Assembly (NCBI GenBank): GCA_004376975.1
Contig: SOJA01000113.1
Coordinates: forward strand, 1-11,679
Length of the DNA: 11,679 nt
Reading direction: 5' to 3'
Source: Candidatus Bathyarchaeota archaeon
GTDB taxonomy: Archaea > Thermoproteota > Bathyarchaeia > Bathyarchaeales > UBA233
Part shown: positions 1-11,679 of the stretch, one piece after another
How the letters are laid out: every line of letters begins with the position of its first letter
How positions within the stretch are numbered: position 1 is the first letter of the stretch
The notes under the pieces: model-generated
Databases searched by the model: none
Seen by the model: only the letters and a program-made list of their open reading frames with translations
Told to the model about the DNA's origin: nothing
Made by a program: the position numbers and the translations under genes

Positions 1-637
1 TCTTGTATCGTTTATAACCATACTCGCTTATCGACGCTGGGTCATAAAGCTCTAAACCTGTGGCCAAAACTACGCTTGAAACATTAAGTGTTATTTCATC
101 AGGTTTTTGATCGAAGTTGATTGCATGTGCTTGGCAGAATTTTTCGCACACCCTGCACACTCCTTTCTGAAAGAAGAGGCAGTGGTCCTTGTCTATTGTG
201 GCTACGCGAGGCACCGCTTGTGGAAAAGGCATATAGATGGCTTTTCGTATCCCCATGCCCATATCGAATTCGCTGGGTACCTTAACTGGGCACTTTTCAG
301 TGCATGCACTGCAACCAGTACATTTGTCAGCGTCAACAAACCTAGGGTTTTTCAAAACCTTAGCTTTAAAGTTTCCAGCAGAACCAGTAACTTCCTTAAC
401 TTCTGAACATGTGAGCAGTTTGATGTTTGGGTGGCGGAAGCACTCGATCATTTTTGGTGCGAGTATGCATATGGAACAATCCATCGTTGGGAAAGTCTTG
501 TCAAGCTGAGCCATTCGTCCGCCAATGGTTGGGGATTTTTCCACAAGATATACTGTGAGCCCTCGATCAGCAAGGTCCAAAGATGCTTGTATTCCAGCTA
601 TGCCCCCGCCGACTACAAGTACAGCATTGTTACCCAA
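1..637 (-). CDS. Short HdrA-like FAD/iron-sulfur oxidoreductase (3' end outside window)
   Basis: This is a paralog of the HdrA at 6807-9191. HdrA is the flavin and iron-sulfur subunit of heterodisulfide reductase-type electron-transfer complexes. The visible 212 residues hold an FAD-binding GGGIAG at 10-15, the DCSIC segment at 53-57 that aligns with DCSQC in the full HdrA, a 4Fe-4S set C106/C109/C112/C116, and a second set C153/C161/C164/C168. The frame is open to the left edge. I chose the TTG at 637-635 because a GAGG lies about nine bases upstream and because an in-frame TAA sits further upstream at 697-695, with only weak homology to the longer HdrA between the two. A TATA-like TTTAA at about 692-688 would give a leader of roughly 27 bases. 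The protein therefore lacks the CHCGGN N-terminal domain of full HdrA. It could be a natural short form or a 5'-truncated copy; the intact motifs favour a working gene. Confidence 0.8.
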   Translation of the reverse strand, partial: MGNNAVLVVGGGIAGIQASLDLADRGLTVYLVEKSPTIGGRMAQLDKTFPTMDCSICILAPKMIECFRHPNIKLLTCSEVKEVTGSAGNFKAKVLKNPRFVDADKCTGCSACTEKCPVKVPSEFDMGMGIRKAIYMPFPQAVPRVATIDKDHCLFFQKGVCRVCEKFCQAHAINFDQKPDEITLNVSSVVLATGLELYDPASISEYGYKRYK

Positions 638-720
638 GTTAATTTTCCTCTGATGAAATGAGAGTAATCCACTTCTTAATTTGAAACTTAAATCTTACTC
701 TAAGTATCTCACGAACAAAA

Positions 721-820
721 GGAATCATGCTTTGTAGTAGTACGGTCCTTTTGATGTAGCCAAATGCTTCGGCGGCTGCTATCGTGGCTTGCCCCACGGT
801 CGTTCCAACTTGTTTAACTG
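721..820 (-). pseudogene. Remnant of the 3' end of a thioredoxin reductase gene
   Basis: The minus strand encodes PVKQVGTTVGQATIAAAEAF, matching the C-terminus of the intact thioredoxin reductase at 5828-6763 (PVKQIGTAVGQAIIAATEAF). Nucleotide similarity is also plain and continues past the stop into a shared GGAATCA. One extra base at about 754 breaks the frame; removing it gives GYTKGPYYYKA and a stop, against GYTKQPYYYKG in the intact gene. Homology begins abruptly at about 820, only 24 bases beyond the stop of the RHH gene, so the rest of this copy is missing. A 62-residue frame at 639-827 with a TTG start reads through the remnant, but its second half is frameshifted and I do not consider it a gene. 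The remnant suggests an ancestral thioredoxin reductase-HdrA pair here, disrupted when the RHH/gdhA block arrived. Confidence 0.8.
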
Positions 821-843
821 GAATCAATGATTGATCAATCTCT

Positions 844-2772
844 TTACTCTTTCAGAAACTCCGTTAGGAATATTGCGTATTCGCAGGGATGTTCGTTTTT
901 TAGTAAAGACTTTATTGTTTTTATTCTGCCTTTTCCTCCGTGTGTTACTCTTGATAAAATGTATTCTATGGCTTTTTTTCTAAAGTTGCATAGCCATGTT
1001 TTTTGTCCTTTTTTGACGAGTTTGTAGTATGGGCATGTTTTGTATTTGAGTGTGAAGCCTCCTTGGAAGTATTCTATTTCGACTTCTATTCCCATCTCTC
1101 TGTACATGTCAGTTAGGCGTTCTCCTACCTCCCTTATTGTCCATGGGTAGTCGAGCGGGAACAGTTCGTCGAGTGTGCGTTTGACTTGTCGAAGGGCTTC
1201 TTTGGGCGAGTTGGCTGACATTGTGTCTACTATTGTTTGCATTGCTGCGCTGCGAGGTATGGGCTCTAAAGCAGGTTTTTCCACTCTCCTTATTTTGAAG
1301 TTGAGAAGATTTTGAAATGCGGTCACGGAAACTTCGTAATCCAGAGATCTGAGCAATGATTTTATCAAAACTCTTTGACTATTTACCACAACTGGGTCCA
1401 TCTTCTTAAGAATCACTGTGATTTGTTCATTGTCAACAAATCTGATCTCTGCGTCCGGTTGAACTTGATTCAAATTCTTTAGGATGAAGCTTCTTGATAG
1501 CCGCTCAATTTTTTCCAAGTCGTTTTTAGCAAGCATACGTATTGCATTTGCAATTCTGGCTCCCATGTTTTTATATATGTCCTCAAACTTGCTTCGATCG
1601 CTTTCGAAAACCTTGGCTGCAAAGGAGTCAAAGATGTCTCTGGGGACAAGAATTGTGTCAAGAAATTGCTCGCTTACAACACGGTAAAGATTAAGCTCCA
1701 CAAGTTGATCCAAAACATCCTTTTTTCCCTCTCCAACAAATTTGATCACCATGTTTCCGTTATCGTATTCAGTAGAGTAACTAATCAGCTTCCACCCTTT
1801 CGTGGCTAATATCAATGAAAAAGTCACTGTTGCAATATTAGTTACTGAAGGTGTTGATGCTTGAAATGAGATTCTGAGGTTTCCATCTGCTTCCCTCGTT
1901 TTTTTAACATTTTTAAACCAGTTCATTTTCACTCCTACAGAGAAAAGCTCGTCCACAAACTTGTTTGGGTCCTCAGGCAATTCTTCAGGTTTCATAAAAG
2001 CTCTAATATCTTCAATTACTGTGCCTAAATCAGCAATGGGGCCCTCAAGATTTTTTTCAACCCAGTTCATAAAAGCTGGACCAACTAAAACCAAATTGTT
2101 CTTGGACAAGTAGGGCTTCAAGAGTGAAAGTCTTTCTTCCATCTGCTGAAACAACTGTTGACTATGATCTGTTTTCTTTAAGGCGTAAATGTCATTTCGG
2201 ATCTTTTTCAAAATTATGTCTTTCCCCATTAATCTCAAATCGAATGGAACTTCTATCCCTTCTAGGATAATTGATAATTGACTGGCAACAAGTTCAGGTA
2301 TGCGTGTGAAAACTCTAGGCCTTAAAATCGCGGTACTATCTAGTTCACTGTATGAGGTGATTTCGTACAATCTCGTTAGATTCCTTATTTTTTCAACAAC
2401 CGTTAGGAATTCTCTAAAACTTGTTGGAGTTTTCCAATTAATTGATGTCTTAAGTAGTTCGATTACATTTTGTGCCTCGTTTCTCTGGATTTTCAAAAAC
2501 CCATTAAATGTTTGGTCGCCAACTGCTATTTTTAGCAGTTCGTCAAGAATTTCTCTTCTAACAGAGGTTAGGTCTAGGGTTTCTCTTAATTTATTCTGCT
2601 CTTCGATTTGTGCCTTGATTGAGCAGTCTTCGCATGAACCTACTTTTTTCACTCTTAACATTGTTTCGAGGGCTTTTTCAATAACTCTGCTTTTTGTTCC
2701 GTAAGTTTTAGCTAGTTCTTCGATAATCTGATCAGTTTCTCTCGGTATCGTAGTGTGAAGGTGAACCGGCAT
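844..2772 (-). CDS. Large ribbon-helix-helix protein with a cysteine-containing C-terminal domain; putative regulator
   Basis: I do not recognise the whole 642-residue protein. Residues 1-42 look like a ribbon-helix-helix DNA-binding domain: a short strand ending HTTIP, then two helices split by a turn at YGTKS. A CEDC pair follows at 47-50. Residues 55-260 look mostly helical. From about 270 on there are alternating helical and strand-rich stretches (270-347, 378-495, 508-642) that may be diverged copies of one alpha/beta module. The last of these carries C580, C595 and C630, a possible metal or iron-sulfur site. No signal peptide or membrane segment is visible. The ATG at 2772 is kept because the RHH strand begins at once; the binding site is weak (AGTGA). 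The gene lies 140 bases after gdhA on the same strand but has its own promoter with TGTTCA boxes. A regulator of itself and of gdhA is an inference from the RHH domain and those boxes. Confidence 0.8.
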   Translation of the reverse strand: MPVHLHTTIPRETDQIIEELAKTYGTKSRVIEKALETMLRVKKVGSCEDCSIKAQIEEQNKLRETLDLTSVRREILDELLKIAVGDQTFNGFLKIQRNEAQNVIELLKTSINWKTPTSFREFLTVVEKIRNLTRLYEITSYSELDSTAILRPRVFTRIPELVASQLSIILEGIEVPFDLRLMGKDIILKKIRNDIYALKKTDHSQQLFQQMEERLSLLKPYLSKNNLVLVGPAFMNWVEKNLEGPIADLGTVIEDIRAFMKPEELPEDPNKFVDELFSVGVKMNWFKNVKKTREADGNLRISFQASTPSVTNIATVTFSLILATKGWKLISYSTEYDNGNMVIKFVGEGKKDVLDQLVELNLYRVVSEQFLDTILVPRDIFDSFAAKVFESDRSKFEDIYKNMGARIANAIRMLAKNDLEKIERLSRSFILKNLNQVQPDAEIRFVDNEQITVILKKMDPVVVNSQRVLIKSLLRSLDYEVSVTAFQNLLNFKIRRVEKPALEPIPRSAAMQTIVDTMSANSPKEALRQVKRTLDELFPLDYPWTIREVGERLTDMYREMGIEVEIEYFQGGFTLKYKTCPYYKLVKKGQKTWLCNFRKKAIEYILSRVTHGGKGRIKTIKSLLKNEHPCEYAIFLTEFLKE

Positions 2773-2782
2773 AGCATTTCAC

Positions 2783-2831
2783 TTCATGAAATATTATGTT
2801 CACTCGATCTTAAATGTGTTCATTTTGAACA
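2783..2831 (-). promoter_or_regulatory. Promoter and putative operator of the RHH gene
   Basis: Plus-strand coordinates: TGTTCA at 2797-2802, then a perfect palindrome TGTTCATTTTGAACA at 2817-2831 (six-base arms, three-base centre). Between the boxes, 2809-2816 reads CATTTAAG on the minus strand, a plausible TATA element placing the transcript start near 2787 and a leader of about 15 bases. A separate palindrome, TTCATGAA, lies at 2783-2790 near the expected start. The 11-mer TATTATGTTCA at 2792-2802 recurs exactly at 4720-4730 before gdhA. Binding at these boxes would cover the TATA element. The upstream part of this gap contains a run of five T on the minus strand (2894-2890) that might end the gdhA transcript; this is weak evidence. 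Confidence 0.6.
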
Positions 2832-2912
2832 AAACGGGAAATTTAGAGTTAGAAGATGTCTCTTATTGAGCTGCCAATTTGTCGTTGGGAAAAAGGGGAA
2901 GATGAGTGTTGG

Positions 2913-4673
2913 CTATTTTGTTGGTATACGTATGGGCATGACCATTGCTCTTTTACGAATCTTAATCACGTTGGCTATTCTTTTCGTAGCCAACATGTAG
3001 GCTGCTGTTCGCATTGGAATATTATATTCCCGCGATGTCGCAAGGACTTCTCTGTAACTCTTTCTCATAATTGCTTCAAGTTTGCTTCTGACTTCCTCTT
3101 CTGTCCAGTAGTAGTTCATCTGATTTTGCACTTGCTCAAAATAGCTTACTGTAACGCCACCCGCGTTCGCAAGTATGTCTGGAATAACAAATATGCCTCT
3201 TTCGTAAAGTATTTTGTCGGCTTCAGGAGTTGTGGGGCCGTTGGCTCCTTCAGCAACTACTTTCGCTTTTATTTTATGGACGTTCTCCTGGGTTATCTGA
3301 TTTTCTAAAGCAGCTGGAATGAGTATTTCGCATTCGAGTTCCAGTAATTCCTCATTAGTCATGTTCTTCGCTCCTAGAAAATCAATTACTGACCCTGTCT
3401 GTTTTTTATGCTCCTTCACCTCTAATGGGTCAAAACCGTCAGGCTTGTATATTCCCCCCTTCGAATCTGAAACCGCGATGATTTTGCATCCCATTTCATG
3501 CAGTATCCTTGCCGCATTAAAACCTACATTTCCATACCCTTGAACTACTACTCTGGTGCCTTTGAGGTCTATGCCCAAGTGTTCCGCCGCTTCAACAATA
3601 GTGTACACTAAACCTCTAGAGGTTGCTTCACTCCTTCCGCGAGAGCCTCCTATCTCTACGGGTTTTCCAGTAACTACTCCGGGAGCAAACTGTCCAGTAA
3701 TTTGGCTATATTCGTCCATTACCCATGCCATAACTTGTGCGTCTGTGTAGACATCTGGAGCTGGGACGTCGATGTTGGGACCTATAAACTTGGCTATTGC
3801 CCTTGTATATCCTCTAGTAAGTCGTTCGAGTTCGCTGAGCGACATTTCCTTCGGGTTACACCTTATTCCGCCTTTTGCTCCGCCTAATGGAAGCCCAACA
3901 ACAGCAGTTTTAAATGTCATCCACGCAGCCAAAGCAACCACTTCGTCTAATGTTAGGTCGGGGTGATACCTTATTCCGCCTTTAGTCGGTCCCAATGCGT
4001 CATTATACTGTACACGACAACCTGTGAAAACTCGCAGGTTTCCATCATCCATTAGAACTGGTATGTTTACAATTATTGATCGTGTTGGATGCTTTAGTAT
4101 TTGGTGAATCGCCGGGTCTAACCTCAATTTTTCGGCGGCAATATCCAGCTGTCGTAAGGCTGTCTCATATGGATTCGGCACAGGAATGATAGGCTTTAAT
4201 GTTTCAATTTCAATGGATGCCGCTTTTTGAATTTCAGAAATCAAGCTTTCAAAGGTTTCTCTAGCCTCTTCCATAGTGCCACCGAAAAACCAATGGAAAG
4301 CGTCGACAAGCGCCTCTTTTCTATCAGCTATGACGCTCACTCCGCTCATTTTCGGTGATTCGGCGAAATAGTCAACGAACACTCTTAACGTATCTAGTTC
4401 TGTTCGTAAAAGAGATCTAAACTTCTTATCTGCACCTACAGTTTCGATTTGCACATAATCCGCGTCGTTAATCTTGTTCTCCAAGCTTTCAATAACTTTA
4501 ATCGAATCTTTAACAGGAACTCCGAAGTTTTCTGAAAAGGCTGTGGCAAGCGCGTAGCGGGCTGAAGTGAAACTTTCGATTTTTGCGGTTAATTCAGGTT
4601 CATCTGTGAAGAAGTCTGCCATCAACTTGAACGTTCCTAATTCCATCGCAGTTAATTCGACTAAGCTCAACAT
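2913..4673 (-). CDS. gdhA: Glutamate dehydrogenase with a duplicated N-terminal extension
   Basis: It interconverts glutamate with 2-oxoglutarate and ammonia in the cytoplasm. The catalytic core starts at about residue 166 and is typical: K231 in GPTKGG, K255 in TFKTA, K267 in GGAKGG, D307 in VPAPD, and a Rossmann GYGNVG at 379-384. The spacing of the three lysines matches the family's K89/K113/K125. NAD versus NADP preference is not clear; D403 follows the second strand. The protein has 586 residues against about 415-420 usually, the excess being an N-terminal region of about 165 residues. That region is a tandem repeat, roughly 7-78 and 88-159, each copy running from an EL-T start through an AF-FG centre to an ESL segment and an IET end. 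The start is well supported by a GAGGTG seven bases before the ATG. A GTG at residue 165 could start a core-only protein but has no visible binding site. Its promoter shares TGTTCA boxes with the RHH gene. Confidence 0.93.
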   Translation of the reverse strand: MLSLVELTAMELGTFKLMADFFTDEPELTAKIESFTSARYALATAFSENFGVPVKDSIKVIESLENKINDADYVQIETVGADKKFRSLLRTELDTLRVFVDYFAESPKMSGVSVIADRKEALVDAFHWFFGGTMEEARETFESLISEIQKAASIEIETLKPIIPVPNPYETALRQLDIAAEKLRLDPAIHQILKHPTRSIIVNIPVLMDDGNLRVFTGCRVQYNDALGPTKGGIRYHPDLTLDEVVALAAWMTFKTAVVGLPLGGAKGGIRCNPKEMSLSELERLTRGYTRAIAKFIGPNIDVPAPDVYTDAQVMAWVMDEYSQITGQFAPGVVTGKPVEIGGSRGRSEATSRGLVYTIVEAAEHLGIDLKGTRVVVQGYGNVGFNAARILHEMGCKIIAVSDSKGGIYKPDGFDPLEVKEHKKQTGSVIDFLGAKNMTNEELLELECEILIPAALENQITQENVHKIKAKVVAEGANGPTTPEADKILYERGIFVIPDILANAGGVTVSYFEQVQNQMNYYWTEEEVRSKLEAIMRKSYREVLATSREYNIPMRTAAYMLATKRIANVIKIRKRAMVMPIRIPTK

Positions 4674-4703
4674 TCGTTTTCACCTCGACCTTTACAAATG
4701 TAA

Positions 4704-4773
4704 TGTTCAATTATACAAGTATTATGTTCATCATGTACATCAATGAACAACGAAAACGAACAAACATTTTAAT
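4704..4773. promoter_or_regulatory. Divergent promoter region with repeated TGTTCA/TGAACA boxes
   Basis: Boxes on the plus strand are TGTTCA at 4704-4709, TGTTCA at 4725-4730, TGAACA at 4744-4749 and a near match CGAACA at 4757-4762. A central palindrome ATGTACAT lies at 4733-4740, flanked by TGTTCAT and ATGAACA, forming a larger inverted repeat over 4725-4749. For gdhA the TATA-like element is 4718-4711 (TTGTATAA on the minus strand), exactly between the two TGTTCA boxes, giving a transcript start near 4690. For the KaiC-like gene the TATA-like element is TTTTAAT at 4767-4773, directly after the last box, giving a start near 4795. The layout around the gdhA TATA matches that of the RHH promoter. 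Which protein binds is not shown by the sequence. Confidence 0.6.
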
Positions 4774-4815
4774 GGAAGAACGAGGAAATCTAACACTCAA
4801 CAGGATGGAGAAATA

Positions 4816-5544
4816 ATGCATTATCCGACCGGAGTAAAGGATTTGGACAAACTTTTAGGTGGAGGCCTAATCTTGGGCGAAAATGTTCTATGGGAAATTG
4901 ACACCGGAACATTTATCCATGAATTCCTTCGTGCATTCATGAAACAAGGTATACAAGAAAACAATCAGGTAATCTATTTAGATTTTATATATCCCCCGCA
5001 AGCACTACTAGTTCTGCTTAATCCCCTAATAAGACAACTGCCCAAAGATTGGGAGAAAAAACTTCTAGTTTTAGACTGCTTTTCGGAATCAACTGGACTA
5101 GGCGAACTGATATTCACGGATTTCTATGACAAAGCTCCCCAATGGATAAGAAAAGTGCCCAGCTCAAAAGACCCAGAACGTTTCCACCATTTCTTCGGAA
5201 GAATAGAAAGAGAATTCATAAGCGAAGGAACCAGGCTGATATTCAACAGCCTAACCGCAATGCAGCACATCTGGGGAAGAGAAAACACAAAAACGTTCTT
5301 CGGTCACATATGCCCCGCACTATACGCGTACAAAACACTTGCGTACTGGACAATAGAAAAATCTGCTCACCCAAAAGAATTCCTTGCAGCAATAGAACAC
5401 ATGACACAAGTAGTAATTGACCTTAACAAACAAGAAGAAAAACTAACGCTTCAAATCAAAGAAGCAGGTGGAAGATACGCCCCTCAAACATACGAAAGAA
5501 GAGAATACAAAGTCGAAGGTTTGACCATTACATTTCACCGGTAA
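4816..5544 (+). CDS. KaiC/RadA-like RecA-fold protein with degenerate ATP-binding motifs
   Basis: The 242-residue protein opens with TGVKDLDKLLGGG (5-17), the hallmark N-terminus of KaiC/RadA-like RecA-fold domains, which many archaea carry as single-domain proteins. The usual Walker A glycine-lysine-threonine motif is absent: the equivalent stretch at about 21-33 reads GENVLWEIDTGTF. The Walker B region at 139-149 is TRLIFNSLTAM, with asparagine where an acidic residue is expected. The end, with AGGRYAP at 217-223 and VEGLTITF at 233-240, fits the C-terminal strands of the fold. So the fold appears kept while ATP hydrolysis is doubtful; a structural or signalling role is an inference. The start is supported by GGATGGAG at 4803-4810. 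It is divergent from gdhA across a 142-base region holding shared TGTTCA-type boxes, which suggests common control. Confidence 0.85.
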   Translation: MHYPTGVKDLDKLLGGGLILGENVLWEIDTGTFIHEFLRAFMKQGIQENNQVIYLDFIYPPQALLVLLNPLIRQLPKDWEKKLLVLDCFSESTGLGELIFTDFYDKAPQWIRKVPSSKDPERFHHFFGRIEREFISEGTRLIFNSLTAMQHIWGRENTKTFFGHICPALYAYKTLAYWTIEKSAHPKEFLAAIEHMTQVVIDLNKQEEKLTLQIKEAGGRYAPQTYERREYKVEGLTITFHR

Positions 5545-5827
5545 ATTCGTCCCCGGAATCTCACTTGTATCCTGTCAAATTAGGCTTTTCTAGCTAAATG
5601 AAATCAAAATGAGCTTAAATTTTTGGTTCAGACGATTGGATTTAAACCCGTCCCCACAGTGAAGACATCACCAATCTTCTTTCTTGCGCCCCGCTCGACA
5701 GGACTCACAAACCAAAAACAAAGGGACAAAGAAAGACCTCTGTTTTGGTGCATTCTCGTCGCATAGCTTTCATCTTAAACGTACGTGTATGAGCGTTTTG
5801 CCAGCAACCTTTAAGGAATCACGAATT
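5545..5827. other. Intergenic gap between convergent genes
   Basis: It separates the ends of the KaiC-like gene and the thioredoxin reductase gene. I find no convincing gene. Small structures are GATTGG at 5634-5639 pairing with CCAATC at 5671-5676, an inner GTGA/TCAC pair at 5659-5662 and 5668-5671, and on the minus strand a GGTTTAAATCC segment enclosed by GACG and CGTC. The stretch 5645-5712 is richer in G and C than its surroundings. A TATA-like TTAAATT at 5615-5621 precedes it on the plus strand. A small RNA is possible but unproven. No tRNA could be folded. Confidence 0.5.
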
Positions 5828-6763
5828 TTATCCTTTGTAGTAGTATGGTTGTTTTGTGTAACCAAACGCTTCAGTGGCTGCTATTATGGCTTGCCCCACG
5901 GCTGTTCCAATCTGCTTAACTGGGCTCGTGGTCACGTCACCGGCAGCGTACACACCGCTTAGATTGGTTCTTTGACGACTGTCAACAATGATATAGCCAT
6001 CTTTATCCACTTCAACACCGGCTTCCTTAGCGATTTGACTGTTCGGCACTTCACCAACTTGAACAAACACACCATCAACATCCATTTCTCTAGTCTCACC
6101 AGTTTTGCTGTTGAATAGGACAACGCCTTTCACTTTGACATCGCCTCTGATCTCTTTAAGCTCCGTGTTCCATAGAACATTTACCTTTTGGGCATGCAGG
6201 TCCTTCACAAGCGCTTCTTCCGCTCTTAACTGACTTCTTCGATGAGCCAACTTAACATCCGACGCCAGATTCGCGAGGTATATTGCGGAGACAATCGCTG
6301 CGTTTCCACCGCCTATCACAATCACCTTTTTCCCTTTGAAGAATGGGCCGTCACACAGGGTGCAATAGCTGACTCCTCTGCCACGAAGCTCTTTTTCACC
6401 GGGTACTCCAAGCTCCCTGTAATGACAGCCAGAAGCAATAATCACAGCGGACGCTGAGTAAGTAGCTTTATCAGTTTTAACAATTCTTCTTTCATCCTTA
6501 ACATTTAGTTCGATGAACCTTTCTAACTGTCTGATTTCAGCGCCCACTTTTCTACAGTGCTCAGCCATTTTATCAACTAAATCGCGTCCACTGATTCCCT
6601 CAGAAAAGCCCGGGTAATTCTCGACTAACGGTGTGTCAGCAGCTGCGCCTCCAGGAGTTTTTTCCTCAAGAACTAGCGTTTTAAGTCCGCTTCGAGCTCC
6701 ATAAATACCCGCTGTAAGACCAGCCGGTCCTGCGCCGATGATAATTAAGTCCCAACTCTCCAT
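5828..6763 (-). CDS. trxB: Thioredoxin reductase-family NADPH/FAD oxidoreductase
   Basis: It should reduce a thioredoxin-like disulfide protein with electrons from NADPH through FAD and a cysteine pair. With the ATG at 6763 the protein has 311 residues, normal for the family. Visible motifs are the FAD-binding GAGPAG at 10-15, the redox CTLC at 134-137 followed by DG, a second dinucleotide site GGGNAA at 151-156, the HRR at 174-176 typical of NADPH use, and AGD at 274-276. A TTG at 6838 in the same frame would add 25 residues that overlap the HdrA end and do not resemble the family, so I reject it. Upstream of the chosen ATG no clear ribosome binding site is seen. It follows hdrA by 43 bases on the same strand and is probably co-transcribed, hinting that the two exchange electrons directly or share a thiol pool. 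The last 33 codons match the remnant at 721-820. Confidence 0.92.
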   Translation of the reverse strand: MESWDLIIIGAGPAGLTAGIYGARSGLKTLVLEEKTPGGAAADTPLVENYPGFSEGISGRDLVDKMAEHCRKVGAEIRQLERFIELNVKDERRIVKTDKATYSASAVIIASGCHYRELGVPGEKELRGRGVSYCTLCDGPFFKGKKVIVIGGGNAAIVSAIYLANLASDVKLAHRRSQLRAEEALVKDLHAQKVNVLWNTELKEIRGDVKVKGVVLFNSKTGETREMDVDGVFVQVGEVPNSQIAKEAGVEVDKDGYIIVDSRQRTNLSGVYAAGDVTTSPVKQIGTAVGQAIIAATEAFGYTKQPYYYKG

Positions 6764-6806
6764 TTTTATCAACAGTCCATACGCTTCACATGAATTCCTA
6801 ATTGTC

Positions 6807-9191
6807 TCAATCTGCCGAAAAACTCTGTTGCGCTGCAAGTTTTTCTTTAATTTTCAAGCGTGTTTCTTGTGAAAGAGGACCCATCTTCGAAATTCTCTCG
6901 TTGAATGTTTCGAATATGTTGAGTACCTTGTTGTATTCTGGAAGCGTTGTAGAAAACGACATAAGGCGGAGGGACTGGACACCATATTCTCTTAGCTCCT
7001 TTTTCAATTGAGTAACATGTTTCCTCAAAGCCTCTTCAGTAAACACGCCGCCATGATCCTCAAGCAATATCACGCCGTCAGCTCCAGAGGCGAATGCGTG
7101 CAACAAATGTTTCAAGCCGACTCTTCCAGTGCTGGGAACACTGATTATCTCCACGTTGGGGGGATATGATGCTCTAGACTGCCCAGCTAAGTCAGCAGCT
7201 CCGTAAGCTATCTCTTTCTCAAGAAAAGCGATGATCTTTGGCGCCTTGCCGCCTTCGCTTACTTTACAGATTTGAGCCATCAACTGGGCTTCAGTGCAGT
7301 GCTTAAGGTCAATAGCCTCTTCAGGACATCTTGGCACGCAGATTCCACATCCAACACATGACATCGGGTTGATCGTTAAGCCTGTAGGAGACTCTTCCAC
7401 CGCCGCAACGGGACATACTTTTATGCATATCCCACAGTTGTTACATTTTTCGGGAATGATATAGGCTACTTCTGGCGAGACAGAAATCTCACCTTTCCCT
7501 ACGAAGGTTGCAACCCTTGAAGCAGTAGACATCGCCTCTAAGACTGTTTCCCTCACGTCCTTTGGACTCAAGGCGCATCCAGCAATAAACACTCCTTCCC
7601 TTTGACTGTCAACTGGCCTAAGCTTGTAGTGTCTTTCCAAAAGAAATCCGTCAGGGCCGACTTGGATGCCCAACTTTTGAGCCAATTCTTGAGTGCCTAA
7701 ACTAGGAATAATCCCCAAGACGAGTACTACTAAGTCGAATTTTCCCTCTACTTGAGTCCCAAGAAGGGTGTCCTCCGCCCTCACCAATATTTCATCACTC
7801 TGCGGAAGAACTTCTGCTACGCGGCCTCTGACAAAATGCACATTGTGATCTTGAGCCGTCGTGTAGAACTCTTCGTATCCTTTCCCATCAGCTCTTACGT
7901 CGGTGTAAAAAATCCATGGCTCGGCGTCCGGCACGATTTTTTGAACTATCATAGCCTGTTTGATTGCAGCCATACAACCTATCTTGCAACAATGTTCCAC
8001 CCCTGGTTCCTCGTTCATCATTCGGCTACCCACGCAGAGTATAAAGGCAACTTTTTTCGCTACCTTTCCGTTAGATGGTCTGCGCATTTCATGATTCAGG
8101 AGTATCTCTAACTGCAGGTTCGTTACGATGTCTGGGTGTAAACCGAAGCTGTACTCCTCAAAAGCTTTCGGATCAACTAGCTCAAATCCGGTGCAAGCAA
8201 CAATCGCGCCCACATCCAGCTCAATGACTTCTTCTTTCTGGTTGAAATCAATGGCTTTACCCTTGCACAATTTTTCGCAAAGCCTGCAAACTCCCTTAGT
8301 GAAATATAAACAATGTTCTTTATCAATCACGTATGTTCTTGGAACAGCCTGCTTGAACGGTGTGTAAATAGCCTTTCGCGGAAACAAGCCGGCTGAGAAT
8401 TCGCTTGGAACCTTGACAGGACAAAACTTCTCACACTCTCCACAGGCAGTGCATTTGGAAGCATCTATAAATCTTGGATGCTTTTTGATTAAGACTCTGT
8501 AGTTGCCAGGAGAACCTTCGACGGCTATTGGTTCTGCCATGCTGATTGTCTTTATGTTTGGGTGCTGTCCAGCGTACACCATTTTCGGCGTGAGAATGCA
8601 CTGCGAGCAGTCGAGGGTGGGGAAAGTTTTGCTAAGCTGGGCCATATGCCCGCCTATGCTCGGGCTTCTCTCCACCAAGTATACTTGATAGCCCTTGTCC
8701 GCCAACTCGATGGAAGCGATGATGCCCGCGATTCCTCCTCCAATCACGAGGATGTCTCTATTCACTGGTATGCTCTTTGTCTTTAACGGCTCGAGGTAAC
8801 GGGCTCGTTCCACCGCCCCACGTACAAGGTCAATAGCCTTAGACGTTGCAGCCTCCTTATCGTCGTGAACCCAGCTACACTGCTCTCTAATATTTGCCAT
8901 TTCAAGGAAATACTGGTTCAAACCAGCCGATTCCACTGCTCGTCTAAAAGTGTCAAGGTGCATCCGCGGTGAACATGACGCCACTACAATTCTGTTGAGC
9001 CCATGCTCCTTTATCCCCTTTATTATCATTTCTTGTCCAGGGTCACTGCACACATATTCGTATGTTTCTGCGATTTTTACCCCTTTAAATTTGGCAGCAG
9101 CTTCTCTCACCTTTTCCACATCTACCGTATCACTTATGTTCCCTCCGCAGTGGCAAATGTACACTCCTACCTTCGTTTCTTCTTGGGTCAT
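6807..9191 (-). CDS. hdrA: HdrA-family electron-transfer flavoprotein fused to a cysteine-free MvhD-like domain
   Basis: HdrA carries FAD and several 4Fe-4S clusters and in methanogens is the electron-bifurcating subunit of HdrABC-MvhADG. In the 794-residue form: N-terminal CHCGGN with C13/C15; FAD site GGGIAG at 151-156; DCSQC at 194-198; cluster cysteines C247/C250/C253/C257; C294/C302/C305/C309; a central group C386, C401, C402, C406; and two ferredoxin-type clusters C583/C586/C589/C593 and C612/C615/C618/C622. Residues from about 651 to 755 align with MvhD (YGAADLAG, VPSTGRV, GADGV), but all five MvhD cysteine positions are replaced. An ATG at 9212 is also possible; I prefer 9191 because GGAG lies eight bases before it and the TATA box at 9250-9241 would leave the upstream ATG with under ten bases of leader. 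No HdrB, HdrC or hydrogenase gene is in the window, so the partner is unknown; a thioredoxin reductase follows at once. Confidence 0.93.
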   Translation of the reverse strand: MTQEETKVGVYICHCGGNISDTVDVEKVREAAAKFKGVKIAETYEYVCSDPGQEMIIKGIKEHGLNRIVVASCSPRMHLDTFRRAVESAGLNQYFLEMANIREQCSWVHDDKEAATSKAIDLVRGAVERARYLEPLKTKSIPVNRDILVIGGGIAGIIASIELADKGYQVYLVERSPSIGGHMAQLSKTFPTLDCSQCILTPKMVYAGQHPNIKTISMAEPIAVEGSPGNYRVLIKKHPRFIDASKCTACGECEKFCPVKVPSEFSAGLFPRKAIYTPFKQAVPRTYVIDKEHCLYFTKGVCRLCEKLCKGKAIDFNQKEEVIELDVGAIVACTGFELVDPKAFEEYSFGLHPDIVTNLQLEILLNHEMRRPSNGKVAKKVAFILCVGSRMMNEEPGVEHCCKIGCMAAIKQAMIVQKIVPDAEPWIFYTDVRADGKGYEEFYTTAQDHNVHFVRGRVAEVLPQSDEILVRAEDTLLGTQVEGKFDLVVLVLGIIPSLGTQELAQKLGIQVGPDGFLLERHYKLRPVDSQREGVFIAGCALSPKDVRETVLEAMSTASRVATFVGKGEISVSPEVAYIIPEKCNNCGICIKVCPVAAVEESPTGLTINPMSCVGCGICVPRCPEEAIDLKHCTEAQLMAQICKVSEGGKAPKIIAFLEKEIAYGAADLAGQSRASYPPNVEIISVPSTGRVGLKHLLHAFASGADGVILLEDHGGVFTEEALRKHVTQLKKELREYGVQSLRLMSFSTTLPEYNKVLNIFETFNERISKMGPLSQETRLKIKEKLAAQQSFSAD

Positions 9192-9216
9192 TTTGACTTC
9201 TCCATTTGACATGGCT

Positions 9217-9250
9217 TCTAAGCAACTCTACAGATTGAACTATAAATGTT
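9217..9250 (-). promoter_or_regulatory. Promoter of the hdrA-trxB pair
   Basis: The minus strand reads AACATTTATA over 9250-9241, a good archaeal TATA box. Twenty-five bases downstream puts the transcript start near 9217-9219, leaving a leader of about 27 bases before the ATG at 9191, with GGAG inside it. No obvious operator repeat is seen. Confidence 0.55.
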
Positions 9251-9376
9251 ATTTTTCAATCTCTTAAACGTCTTGCTAAAAAGCATACTGGTAGCGAACG
9301 ACTTAGATATGAATAGCCTTATGCGAAAACATGAAAAGGGAGAAAACTCTTGTCATAGTCTTGACGGTGGATATGT

Positions 9377-9751
9377 TTGCCGGAAGATAAGGAATTGGAA
9401 CGGTGGAAACATCGGAAACTGTTCGAGATGAGGAAACGCTGGCTGGCAAAAGAGGCTGGAAAAGAAAAGGAAATAGAGGATCCCAAGAGAGTGCTAAGTC
9501 GAGTTCTGATCGGTCGAGGCTTAGAAGTTTTGAACGCTGCAGAACGCCAGTATCCTGAGGCCGTTCCTCAAATTAAAAAGGCTTTAGCTCAGCTGATATC
9601 TACGGGGAAACTGAAAGGCCCAGTGAATGGCGAGCAACTGCTCTGGTTTTTCAAGCGTTTAGGTCTGAACATTAGACTTGAAACACGTATCCGTATTTTG
9701 GAGCATGGAGAGTTGAAGACGATAGAAGAGAAACTGAAAGCAAAATTATAG
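9377..9751 (+). CDS. PDCD5-family DNA-binding protein
   Basis: A 124-residue basic protein of the archaeal/eukaryotic PDCD5 (TFAR19) family, compact helical proteins thought to bind nucleic acid; its cellular role in archaea is not settled. The family N-terminus MPEDKELERWK, the central RVLIGRGLEVLNAAERQYP (about 43-61), the QIKKALAQLISTGKL helix and the FFKRL segment with a following basic tail are all present at normal length. The start is a TTG at 9377, supported by GGTGG at 9366-9370 six bases upstream and by the match to the family N-terminus. An ATG at 9373 in another frame stops after five codons. In many archaea this gene sits with ribosomal protein genes (S19e, L39e, L31e), but none is visible here. 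It is divergent from hdrA and converges on the 52-residue frame at 9769-9927. Confidence 0.92.
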   Translation: MPEDKELERWKHRKLFEMRKRWLAKEAGKEKEIEDPKRVLSRVLIGRGLEVLNAAERQYPEAVPQIKKALAQLISTGKLKGPVNGEQLLWFFKRLGLNIRLETRIRILEHGELKTIEEKLKAKL

Positions 9752-9768
9752 TGAAGTTTTTCTGCGAA

Positions 9769-9927
9769 TCAGAGGACTTTTGCCCTGTGCGCCTTATGAT
9801 TGGAAATAAATGAGGTTGTTTTCTTCCATGCATGCCCGGGTGATAACATCGTTTTTTTCACAATTTTAATTAGTTCTTTTGGTTCTGCTTTAACCTTTTT
9901 TACATTTCTGACATTGGAAACTTTCAT
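9769..9927 (-). CDS. Small lysine-rich protein of unknown function, coupled to the EamA transporter
   Basis: A 52-residue frame starting with ATG at 9927 and ending in TGA at 9769. It begins MKVSNVRNVKKVKAEPKELI and ends HKAHRAKVL. It is strongly basic, with about a dozen lysines, no cysteine and no membrane segment. Its ATG overlaps the stop of the EamA gene by four bases (ATGA), a typical sign of translational coupling and the main reason to take it as real. I recognise no family. It could be a short nucleic-acid-binding peptide or a chance frame in the transporter's 3' region. A near-repeat of 18 bases inside it is shared with the end of the HxlR gene. Confidence 0.45.
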   Translation of the reverse strand: MKVSNVRNVKKVKAEPKELIKIVKKTMLSPGHAWKKTTSFISNHKAHRAKVL

Positions 9928-10829
9928 CTTTTGTAGAGAATGTAAACTCCTAACAACATGATTAATCCAGCTAGTAACTGTATAAGAGTAAAGGCTTCTC
10001 TGAGTATGACAAAAGCAAACACTGCACCAAAAAGGGAGGCTGTAGAAAAAACAACTCCAGTTCGCATTGCACCTATTTCCCTTAATGCAAAAAGAAACAG
10101 TAGGATTGAGAAGGCTATACTGAAAGCTCCCACTGACAATATGTACGGTATGGAAATCAGGGTGACATCAAAACTAACTCTTAGAAATAGAGACATAACT
10201 AGCAGAATAGCGCCACCAATGAAGCATTTCAATCCAGTTACCATTACAATATCTCGCTTCTTGCTCAGAATTTTGCTCAAGTTATTGTCTATTCCCCAAA
10301 ATAGACAGGCACCTACTATCAGCAAGTTGCCGGTGACCTCTTTGGTTAAGGTAAGCATCTGGAACTCTCCTTTTGTTGTTATAAACGCAACTCCAATAAG
10401 TAAGAGAAGAATGGCAAGATAGTCCTTCTTTGTTCCTCGTTCTTTCAGAAAAACAAAGGCTATTAAAACAGTGAACAGTGGTTCTGTGTTAAGGAGTAGA
10501 GACGTATCAATTGCCGTGGTTTCGTTAAGACCATGCAAAAGCATAAAAGGTGCGATGATTGAGCCACAGAGAATAACGAGAGCAAGAATTCTGTAATCTT
10601 TTCCTGATATTTTGGTTTCAGTCTCAGTGGGGGTTTCAAACAGAGAGAGAATCTTTCTGTGAAGTGGAGAAAGGTGAACTGCAAATAGGAGAACACCGCC
10701 AACAAAGTAAATCATTCCTGCAACAATCAAAGGATTAACATTTTCCAACGCAATCTTGTTCAGAGTTGAACTTACTCCAAACAAAACCGCGGAAGCAATC
10801 GCTCCTACATATCCCCAATGGTGAGTCAC
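9924..10829 (-). CDS. EamA/DMT-superfamily membrane transporter
   Basis: A 301-residue integral membrane protein of the drug/metabolite transporter superfamily, usually exporters of metabolites or amino acids; the substrate cannot be read from sequence. Ten hydrophobic segments fall at about 6-25, 33-52, 80-100, 107-127, 137-152, 167-187, 195-217, 225-243, 255-275 and 283-299, as two five-helix EamA halves. The first half ends with the family-typical NTEPLFTVLIAFVFLKER. The GTG start at 10829 has GAGTGA about eight bases upstream. The next possible start would remove the first helix. It lies 35 bases after the HxlR gene on the same strand and overlaps the start of the 52-residue frame by four bases, so regulator, transporter and small protein probably form an operon. 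Confidence 0.93.
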   Translation of the reverse strand: MTHHWGYVGAIASAVLFGVSSTLNKIALENVNPLIVAGMIYFVGGVLLFAVHLSPLHRKILSLFETPTETETKISGKDYRILALVILCGSIIAPFMLLHGLNETTAIDTSLLLNTEPLFTVLIAFVFLKERGTKKDYLAILLLLIGVAFITTKGEFQMLTLTKEVTGNLLIVGACLFWGIDNNLSKILSKKRDIVMVTGLKCFIGGAILLVMSLFLRVSFDVTLISIPYILSVGAFSIAFSILLFLFALREIGAMRTGVVFSTASLFGAVFAFVILREAFTLIQLLAGLIMLLGVYILYKR

Positions 10830-10853
10830 GTAATGTCACTCTTATTCTGCAGA

Positions 10854-10873
10854 TTTTGGTTCTGCTATAACTT
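10854..10873. repeat. Copy of a short dispersed near-repeat
   Basis: The plus strand here reads TTTTGGTTCTGCTATAACTT. TTTTGGTTCTGCTTTAAC at 9877-9894 matches its first 18 bases with one difference, and TGGTTCAGCTATAACTT at 11618-11634 matches its last 17 with one difference. On the minus strand all three can be read in the same frame as VxAEP. Meaning is unclear; chance is not excluded. Confidence 0.3.
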
Positions 10874-11266
10874 AGCTATTTTTCGATAGGCAACATCGCA
10901 AGGTGTTTTTGTTTCCTTCTTTAACAAATTGTGCGAATTTGCCCATTGCATTAACGGTAGCATTGCTCTTGCCAGTTCAACTCCATCATTTGTGAGGGTA
11001 TACTCGACTCGTGGAGGAATCTCCGCGTATGCTTCTCTTTTGATTAGACCGTATTCTTCCAGTTCCTTCAATCTATCTGAAAGAGTTTTTGAATTTATAC
11101 CTTTGAGACCTTCCATTATTTTATTGTATCTCAACTTTTCGTTGTTACCAATCGTATTTATTATTAGTAGTGCCCACTTCTTGCTGATAACGTCCATAAC
11201 TTCACCGAGGGGACATACACACTTTTCTTTACTTTCCTTTTGGAAACTCATTCTATCAATCCACAT
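10865..11266 (-). CDS. HxlR-family winged-helix regulator with paired N-terminal cysteines
   Basis: A 133-residue transcription factor of the HxlR family, small dimeric winged-helix proteins several of which sense reactive electrophiles or oxidants through a cysteine near the N-terminus. The family core runs from CPLGEVMDVISKKW (18-31) through the recognition region with NSKTLSDRLKELE (58-70) to the wing at PPRVEYTLT (84-92). There are two cysteines at 16 and 18 (CVCP) where the family commonly has one, plus C123. The ATG at 11266 has AGGT seven bases upstream; a second ATG at 11251 is possible. It leads a likely operon with the EamA transporter and is divergent from a thioredoxin-like gene across an 84-base region with palindromes, which fits autoregulation and control of both sides; that control is inferred. 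Confidence 0.93.
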   Translation of the reverse strand: MWIDRMSFQKESKEKCVCPLGEVMDVISKKWALLIINTIGNNEKLRYNKIMEGLKGINSKTLSDRLKELEEYGLIKREAYAEIPPRVEYTLTNDGVELARAMLPLMQWANSHNLLKKETKTPCDVAYRKIAKL

Positions 11267-11282
11267 TGACTTACCTTTCAGT

Positions 11283-11330
11283 TACTTGGCAACTTAAGTA
11301 CTTGACCTTCTACATCTACTTTATAATTTA
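11283..11330. promoter_or_regulatory. Divergent promoter and putative HxlR operator
   Basis: Overlapping palindromes ACTTAAGT (11292-11299) and AAGTACTT (11296-11303) are accompanied by an outlying TACTT at 11283-11287, which forms TACTT-N8-AAGTA with 11296-11300. TTTATAATTTA at 11320-11330 can serve as TATA element in both directions. On the minus strand it places the HxlR transcript start near 11297, within the palindromes. On the plus strand it would put the transcript start almost at the GTG of the thioredoxin-like gene, so that gene may instead use a weaker element further upstream. Confidence 0.45.
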
Positions 11331-11350
11331 AAGTATTCAGAGGTGAAAAC

Positions 11351-11605
11351 GTGGGACACAACATTGAAGTATTTACCGCTGGATGCCATTTGTGCAAAGA
11401 AACCATGGAAATTGTTCAGAAAGCTAAATGTAGTGAATGCACCGTGACTGAATACAACATCTTGGAAAAATGTGAAAGCGAAATTTGTCTAAAGAAAGCG
11501 AAAGAGTATGGAATAAAAACTGTTCCGACAATTGTTATCGATAGAAAGATTGCAATTGAAGGTAAGCCAACCACCAGACAAGTCAAAGATGCGTTGGGAC
11601 TATGA
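11351..11605 (+). CDS. Cysteine-rich thioredoxin/glutaredoxin-like protein
   Basis: An 84-residue thioredoxin-fold protein likely to act in disulfide exchange or metal/thiol handling in the cytoplasm. It has the active-site CHLC at 12-15 just after the first strand, and TVPTIVID near 57-64, which provides the cis-proline. Unusually there is a second CxxC, CSEC at 27-30, and further cysteines at 41 and 46, six in all. The start is a GTG at 11351 with AGAGGTGA ending five bases before it. It is divergent from an HxlR regulator that itself carries paired cysteines, and its stop overlaps by six bases the convergent gene entering from the right edge. Small proteins of this type are often found near permeases or metal-response regulators; no such permease is identified here. 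Confidence 0.9.
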   Translation: MGHNIEVFTAGCHLCKETMEIVQKAKCSECTVTEYNILEKCESEICLKKAKEYGIKTVPTIVIDRKIAIEGKPTTRQVKDALGL

Positions 11606-11679
11606 TTTCTTCTTCTCTGGTTCAGCTATAACTTTTCCACTTTTCTCAGATTTCGCATCGACGCCTTTGACACCGCAAT
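11600..11679 (-). CDS. C-terminal end of an unidentified protein (5' part outside window)
   Basis: A frame entering from the right edge encodes 25 residues, CGVKGVDAKSEKSGKVIAEP followed by EKKKS, then TAG at 11602-11600. The lysine/glutamate-rich end looks like a flexible cytoplasmic tail. The frame overlaps the stop of the thioredoxin-like gene by six bases. Another frame on this strand, ending with TAG at 11628-11626, is also open over 17 codons, so the assignment is tentative. Too little is visible to name a family. Confidence 0.45.
   Translation of the reverse strand, partial: CGVKGVDAKSEKSGKVIAEPEKKKS

Follow-up and report, generated by a model that had tools for sequence, protein, structure and literature searches.

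The protein encoded next to a long-form glutamate dehydrogenase gene (gdhA) in a Candidatus Bathyarchaeota archaeon is proposed here to act as a local autorepressor that shuts down its own gene and gdhA by reading TGWACA half-sites with an RHH-like head, thereby occluding both promoters in a manner tuned by its sensor-like part. We assign a probability of roughly 80% to this reading. As indicated by the relatives, the boxes are conserved protein-docking sites, the adjoining regulator being the most likely occupant. It is very probable that the RHH-like protein physically binds to them, and repression is the probable outcome rather than activation. The chances that the KaiC-like gene is a further target are even, the argument for it being the intergenic stretch that it has in common with gdhA. 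In our judgement, there is hardly any experimental knowledge of regulators from Bathyarchaeia and Asgard archaea that have not been cultured. Here, the protein head, the 6-bp site, the site spacing and the likely targets are all readable from sequence, and if the proposal is true it provides a rule by which DNA sites in these archaea can be predicted from the protein, together with a defined switch for glutamate metabolism.

Layout of the locus

The window, i.e., the whole stretch of DNA that was analyzed, comprises 11,679 nt (GCA_004376975.1, contig SOJA01000113.1, positions 1-11,679, forward strand), and its features are collected in Table 1. HdrA-like and thioredoxin-reductase-like genes, so named from a reading of their Pfam matches, lie around the KaiC-like, gdhA and regulator genes. 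Upstream of these redox genes a PF01984 double-stranded-DNA-binding protein is encoded at 9377-9751 on the plus strand (E 8.3e-8). In the close relative L002, a glutamate-synthase-like gene is located between the thioredoxin-reductase-like and the KaiC-like gene, where the window has about 280 bases (5545-5827), suggesting that this gene is missing or has moved in the window. L002 and the Bathyarchaeia loci L131-L135 carry an ORF of the same kind, of 535 or 568 residues, near the KaiC-like gene, and both copies that were scanned (L002, L133) match a glutamate-synthase region, which fits glutamate metabolism. As judged by eye, a recognizable Walker A is absent from the expected place of the KaiC-like protein (the window has GENVLWEIDTGTF there, and relatives have similar residues), which may thus be an inactive RecA-fold protein.

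The glutamate dehydrogenase (GDH) itself is of an unusual length. When the long GDH was used as query in 250 Bathyarchaeia-class genomes, the other GDH matches listed start at residue 88 at the earliest and most of them at about residues 162-173. A Pfam scan yielded no convincing match for the N-terminal extension, which is conserved across 15 aligned relatives. An ordinary GDH is encoded in addition to the long one in 11 of the 12 Bathyarchaeia genomes having the long form.

Table 1. Features of the window (positions from its first nucleotide; a point in the strand column marks features listed without strand).
Feature	Position	Strand	Basis or remark
Regulator gene, 642 residues, RHH-like head and long sensor-like part	844..2772	-	ORF
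Sensor-like part (residues 52-642) with roughly four alpha/beta domains as predicted	847..2619	-	models
RHH-like head, residues 1-45, strand HLHTTI and two predicted helices	2638..2772	-	alignment, model, profile comparison
RHH-promoter box, downstream of TATA-like element	2797..2802	.	position also occupied in Hermodarchaeota loci
RHH-promoter TATA-like element TTTAAGAT (gene strand)	2807..2814	-	by eye
RHH-promoter box adjoining TATA-like element	2817..2822	.	sequence match
RHH-promoter third box, least conserved	2826..2831	.	exact only in window and L001
gdhA, long-form glutamate dehydrogenase, 586 residues	2913..4673	-	Pfam ELFV_dehydrog 5.7e-86
N-terminal extension of long GDH, about 166 residues	4176..4673	-	absent from ordinary GDH, whose matches begin near query residue 165-170
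gdhA box 4 (+40), abuts downstream side of TATA-like element	4704..4709	.	exact in 19/19 loci
gdhA TATA-like element TTGTATAAT (gene strand), flanked by boxes 3 and 4	4710..4718	-	predicted from sequence
gdhA box 3 (+19)	4725..4730	.	exact in 13/19 loci; TGGACA in 6
gdhA box 2 (+10), TGTACA	4734..4739	.	exact in 19/19 loci
gdhA box 1 (0), nearest KaiC-like gene	4744..4749	.	exact in 18/19 loci; CGTACA in L132
KaiC/PAXNEB-like gene, divergent from gdhA	4816..5544	+	Pfam PAXNEB 2.9e-9, KaiC 1.7e-4

Boxes in the two promoters

An earlier note on this DNA had reported six TGTTCA/TGAACA boxes in two short intergenic stretches, and these were found at 2797, 2817, 2826(-), 4704, 4725 and 4744(-) within 140 and 142 intergenic bases. 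In dinucleotide shuffles of the two stretches five boxes were the maximum, and none of 20,000 shuffles reached six. The rest of the window holds eight boxes, giving 14 in total compared to a mean of 9.2 in whole-window shuffles, in line with the claim that they occur elsewhere at the expected rate. Chance clustering was rejected by these shuffles as well as by the control regions and genomes described below. The spacings given before hold as well, being 20 bp for 2797-2817 and 21 bp for 4704-4725, and so do the 11-mer TATTATGTTCA common to both promoters (2792-2802 and 4720-4730) and the position of a TATA-like element between the boxes in each of the window’s two promoters. In contrast, the stretch 2817-2831, which had been called a perfect palindrome, actually consists of two perfect 6-base arms around TTT (reverse complement AAA), i.e., the boxes at 2817 and 2826 form a 6-3-6 inverted repeat. 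A seventh box, TGTACA at 4734-4739, had been overlooked; across relatives the box consensus is TGWACA, which occurs four times in the gdhA promoter.

The relatives comprise 19 loci, namely the window, 14 loci from a genome-contig scan and four Bathyarchaeia loci from whole genomes. The contig scan gave 18 loci, 14 of which have a full or nearly full regulator; 13 of these 14 records are named Bathyarchaeota or Hermodarchaeota and one is named ‘archaeon isolate H03M_Hermod_104’. In all 14 the long gdhA precedes the regulator and the KaiC-like gene is divergent from gdhA. A check of orthologous loci for the boxes had been set beforehand as a test that could refute the proposal, and the KaiC-like/long gdhA/RHH-like cluster keeps its operators in 19 of 19 loci.

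At gdhA, the four boxes stand in the register 0/+10/+19/+40; all four are exact in 12 of the 19 loci, and in the other seven three are exact and one carries a single mismatch. Not even three boxes in register were obtained in shuffles of four gdhA promoters (4,000 each). In an alignment of 17 gdhA promoters, from which the near copies L001 and L002 had been dropped, the box columns hold 1.87 bits, the columns between boxes, which include the TATA-like element, 1.16 bits, and the columns outside 0.48 bits. The locus L016 carries a decayed unit (6690-7010) with a broken KaiC-like gene and a long-gdhA start that runs into regulator remnants. Both gdhA and the regulator are largely lost there, and the four-box gdhA operator is retained in register.

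The regulator promoter is more variable. At least two boxes lie within 100 bp in 19/19 loci, and a pair 20 or 21 bp apart is present in 16/19, the regulator promoters of L010, L011 and L132 being devoid of it. A box is found about 45-52 bases before the regulator start codon in 18/19 loci and 36 bases before it in L134. The earlier note had stated that the boxes bracket a TATA-like element at both promoters. This is true for gdhA in 19/19 loci; for the RHH promoter it applies, by reading, to eight of the 19, which are the window’s close kin and Hermodarchaeota, whereas the others have the boxes upstream of the TATA-like element.

The placement of the boxes at the gdhA and regulator promoters is compatible with occlusion of the promoter, a mechanism that PMC5569661 describes for RHH proteins of archaeal viruses. 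The same protein acting on the same boxes might instead activate gdhA, with boxes 1-3 upstream of BRE/TATA helping TBP/TFB, and control its own promoter negatively. Three of the four gdhA boxes are located upstream of the TATA-like element and would also suit an activator, and AvtR, an archaeal-virus RHH protein, is presented in PMC5569661 as both repressor and activator. However, in 19/19 loci box 4 directly follows the TATA-like element on its downstream side, a position suited to blocking, and most RHH regulators described in PMC5569661 repress, making activation of gdhA unlikely.

Boxes outside the locus

Upstream of 40 ordinary short gdh genes (330 bp each), 15 boxes in 12 regions were counted, with no two boxes within 45 bp of each other in any of the 40 regions. 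The 11 ordinary gdh regions that derive from regulator-bearing genomes hold two boxes. Moreover, ten genomes were scanned solely for two TGWACA boxes 20-21 bp apart, resulting in 49 rows, 25 at the regulator/gdhA locus and 24 elsewhere, compared to 27 for the reversed pattern. Paired operators with this spacing are thus not enriched elsewhere, and a wider regulon of 20-21-bp box pairs was rejected for these ten genomes, the off-locus rows equaling the reversed-pattern control. Some of the off-locus rows came without a locus; 18 off-locus pair sites were examined and 12 were found inside ORFs and six between genes, with no recurrent neighbor. The off-locus pairs occur at chance level, which matches the expectation for a local regulator.

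This also bears on the idea that the boxes belong to an unlinked regulator, e.g., an amino-acid regulator of the Lrp/FFRP type, and that the RHH-like protein has other sites. Regulators of the Lrp type such as FL11 control archaeal amino-acid metabolism, as described in PMC2995911. If an unlinked global regulator were responsible, box pairs would be expected at other places too, but these are at chance in the ten genomes, and in Asgard genes whose C-terminal parts are different the boxes go with the head (see below), so that this explanation is very improbable.

The regulator protein

Within the first strand of the head, H4, H6, T7, T8 and I9 are invariant in 75 aligned sequences. The model of the monomer predicts helices at residues 11-24 and 27-40 and has low confidence in the strand region. 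The RHH label is weakly supported by sequence profiles: compared with 30 genuine RHH_1 heads, the head profile aligns in the same register with a P value of 9e-5 and a probability of 59. Single heads gave E values of 0.0071 for RHH_3 and 0.073 for RHH_1, one of 11 heads gave 0.0019 for RHH_3, and RHH_3 matched two of 75 members, all of these being below the curated cut-offs. The Pfam scan of the window protein reported no RHH family, and a search of solved structures with the head sequence returned no RHH protein among the matches listed. For the whole protein no helix-turn-helix family was reported by Pfam at E<=0.1, while the head aligns with RHH_1. Nor was the NikR family reported for the regulator (Pfam E<=0.1; NCBIfam E<=1).

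For the sensor-like part, the predicted models gave VIA-align matches to structures of the TRAPP/H-NOX/DmpR type. MetOD1 reaches 17.7 bits in the window protein versus a cut-off of 23.8, and 63 of 75 members show it as a weak match at E<=0.1, the best value being 3.9e-5. In the last sensor-like domain C580, C595 and C630 are invariant in the 75 aligned sequences. According to PMC5847659, V4R and MetOD1 have a cluster of three conserved cysteines, and we infer that C580/C595/C630 are equivalent to the V4R cysteines. An origin of the predicted domains as internal repeats was considered and rejected; they are alike in topology, yet profile comparison detected no sequence similarity, all six probabilities being below 3.

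At E<=0.001, 463 homologues of the regulator were obtained, and identity is 58-98% among the best 120 of these 463. Regulator matches were found in 17 of 250 Bathyarchaeia-class genomes, 12 of them over the full or nearly full length, and among the matches listed the long GDH is present in the same 12 genomes. The KaiC-like gene (E<=1e-20) is present in 17 of the 250, i.e., in those 12 and in five more, four of which have it partial or broken. In the phylum of the Hermodarchaeota, five of 227 genomes have the full regulator; there is also one cut copy as well as 16 weak matches nearly all in the head. In a phylum-wide genome draw, three of 151 genomes gave a regulator match. The KaiC-like/long gdhA/regulator unit is distributed patchily and seems to be acquired and lost as a whole.

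One suggestion is that the regulator is the antitoxin of a toxin-antitoxin pair and the boxes its operator. Source names such as ‘predicted CopG family antitoxin’ and ‘antitoxin component of RelBE/YafQ-DinJ’ point into this direction, and the YefM-YoeB operator likewise has TGTACA as its core, as described in PMC4803016. The regulator is 642 residues long, though, in L131-L133 about 100 bp or less separate it from gdhA on one side and from the following gene on the other, which is too little for a toxin gene, and the genes constantly found with it are gdhA and the KaiC-like one, leaving the antitoxin reading hardly credible.

Genes sharing only the head

Asgard genes that encode only the head of the regulator, combined with other C-terminal parts, have these boxes in the promoters from which they are themselves expressed, which independently supports the assignment of the boxes to the RHH-like protein made by the earlier note. 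Boxes were counted in 220 bp upstream of the strand codons, with expectations from shuffles. The genes were taken from a head-alignment search with 46 listed rows; 30 of these came with loci, comprising the five Hermodarchaeota regulators and 25 others that were read, and the 16 further rows were read later. Upstream of 17 head-only genes with the strand HxHTT[IV] there are 54 boxes, where about 5.1 are expected; the Asgard genes fall into few related groups, so that there are fewer independent events than genes counted. For the first 16 genes 50 boxes stand against 4.7 in shuffles, and 31 of their 34 spacings are 10, 20-21, 31-32 or 41 bp, corresponding to one to four helical turns, the remaining three being 13 bp. 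The HxHTT class was framed after about ten Asgard genes had been seen. Genes unseen when the idea was formed are L156, L157, L164 and L165 with 15 boxes (1.3 expected), and the 17th gene, L222, also unseen beforehand, has four boxes (31 and 10 bp apart and one 76 away; 0.3 expected). Two HxHTT genes, L151 and L154, have a single box each. As the head is the only part common to the box-bearing proteins, it is the likely reader of the boxes.

Ten variant-strand genes (SVHATIS kind, RLHTTI) have one box in all, about two being expected, and one RLHMTI gene has one box; no boxes were found for the variants L167 and L224-L229, likewise unseen when the idea was formed, nor for the broken HLHTTI fragment L184. 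Eight genes that have IHTT without the first histidine give a mixed picture, with 3, 3, 2, 2, 4, 2, 0 and 1 boxes. Five of the 16 rows read later (L231-L233, L236 and L237) are unlike the HxHTT head in sequence and lack boxes. Furthermore, ordinary RHH_1 genes were taken from eight of the genomes concerned, and the 30 that were counted, out of 34 rows, show six boxes in 6,450 bp. In Bathyarchaeia outside the gdhA branch, 11 of 12 weak head matches have no boxes and L182 has four; in the latter (1280-1500), an RHH-like gene with the strand DLHTHLS, two upstream TGTACA pairs occur, each 11 bp apart, and the similar L180 has none.

In the Asgard head-only genes L138-L142, L149 and L153 the last box overlaps with what is probably the start codon (TGTTCATG), an arrangement in which the beginning of the reading frame would be covered by its own product as well.

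We lean towards a generalization, in which the HxHTT[IV] head would be the shared DNA-reading module of an undescribed Asgard/Bathyarchaeia regulator superfamily that reads the 6-bp box TGWACA, occupies boxes separated by full turns of the helix in the promoters of its own genes and differs in the C-terminal parts. The gdhA branch would be the one with a Bet3/V4R-type chain, travelling with the long GDH and the KaiC-like protein. The Bet3/V4R fold is thought to be ancestral to eukaryotic TRAPP subunits.

Proposed mechanism

For the local autorepressor the following mechanism is the most likely one. Each TGWACA box would seat one RHH dimer, which inserts its paired HLHTTI strands into the major groove, and boxes 9-10 and 20-21 bp apart would align several dimers along the same side of the helix. 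Gathered around the BRE/TATA of gdhA and of the regulator gene, these dimers may hinder TBP/TFB; boxes 3 and 4 of gdhA enclose the predicted BRE/TATA region, and in the regulator promoter a box adjoins the TATA-like element. The C-terminal TRAPP/V4R/MetOD1-like domains with their three conserved cysteines might alter the grip on DNA upon sensing a ligand or the redox state. The sensor-like part would thereby set the affinity, as the V4R cysteines are described to do in MsvR (PMC3729527). The unit would thus represent a local, self-limiting switch for the long glutamate dehydrogenase and perhaps also for the divergent KaiC-like gene. In the literature searched, which includes a minority of the subscription journals, no account of the regulator protein, the box or the gene unit was found.

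Comparison with known systems

Among regulators of archaeal metabolism FL11 has been linked to gdh, and NikR, for its part, has half-sites about two turns apart, the sequence of which differs from TGWACA. RHH repressors that regulate themselves through short, phased sites are already known. As described in PMC5569661, SvtR, AvtR and F55 have an RHH head, autoregulation, cooperative short promoter sites and TATA/BRE occlusion, all of which are proposed here for the window regulator, but they are small viral proteins presented without a large sensor part. Their recognition sequences differ from TGWACA, with ATnnTnnTAnnACnTT for AvtR and ATAGATAG repeats for F55 (PMC5569661). NikR resembles the window regulator in having an RHH head joined to a C-terminal sensor and two separated half-sites, whereas its sensor is a short metal-binding domain compared to about 590 residues here and its targets are nickel genes, according to the description in PMC9860126.

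MsvR is similarly an archaeal autoregulator with a C-terminal V4R domain, three conserved cysteines and several boxes in its own promoter; as portrayed in PMC3729527 it differs by its helix-turn-helix head, its one V4R domain, its restriction to methanogens and its other boxes. The YefM-YoeB operators share with those of the window palindromes with a TGTACA core over the promoter and autoregulation. In contrast, YefM is a non-RHH protein, part of a bacterial toxin-antitoxin pair with a center distance of 12 bp, as given in PMC4803016. Regulators of the FL11-type Lrp/FFRP group are like the proposed regulator in their archaeal control of amino-acid metabolism and unlike it in their helix-turn-helix head, RAM domain, global regulon and 13-bp palindrome, as far as described in PMC2995911. 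A regulator uniting this head, this box, this sensor part and this target was not encountered in the literature searched.
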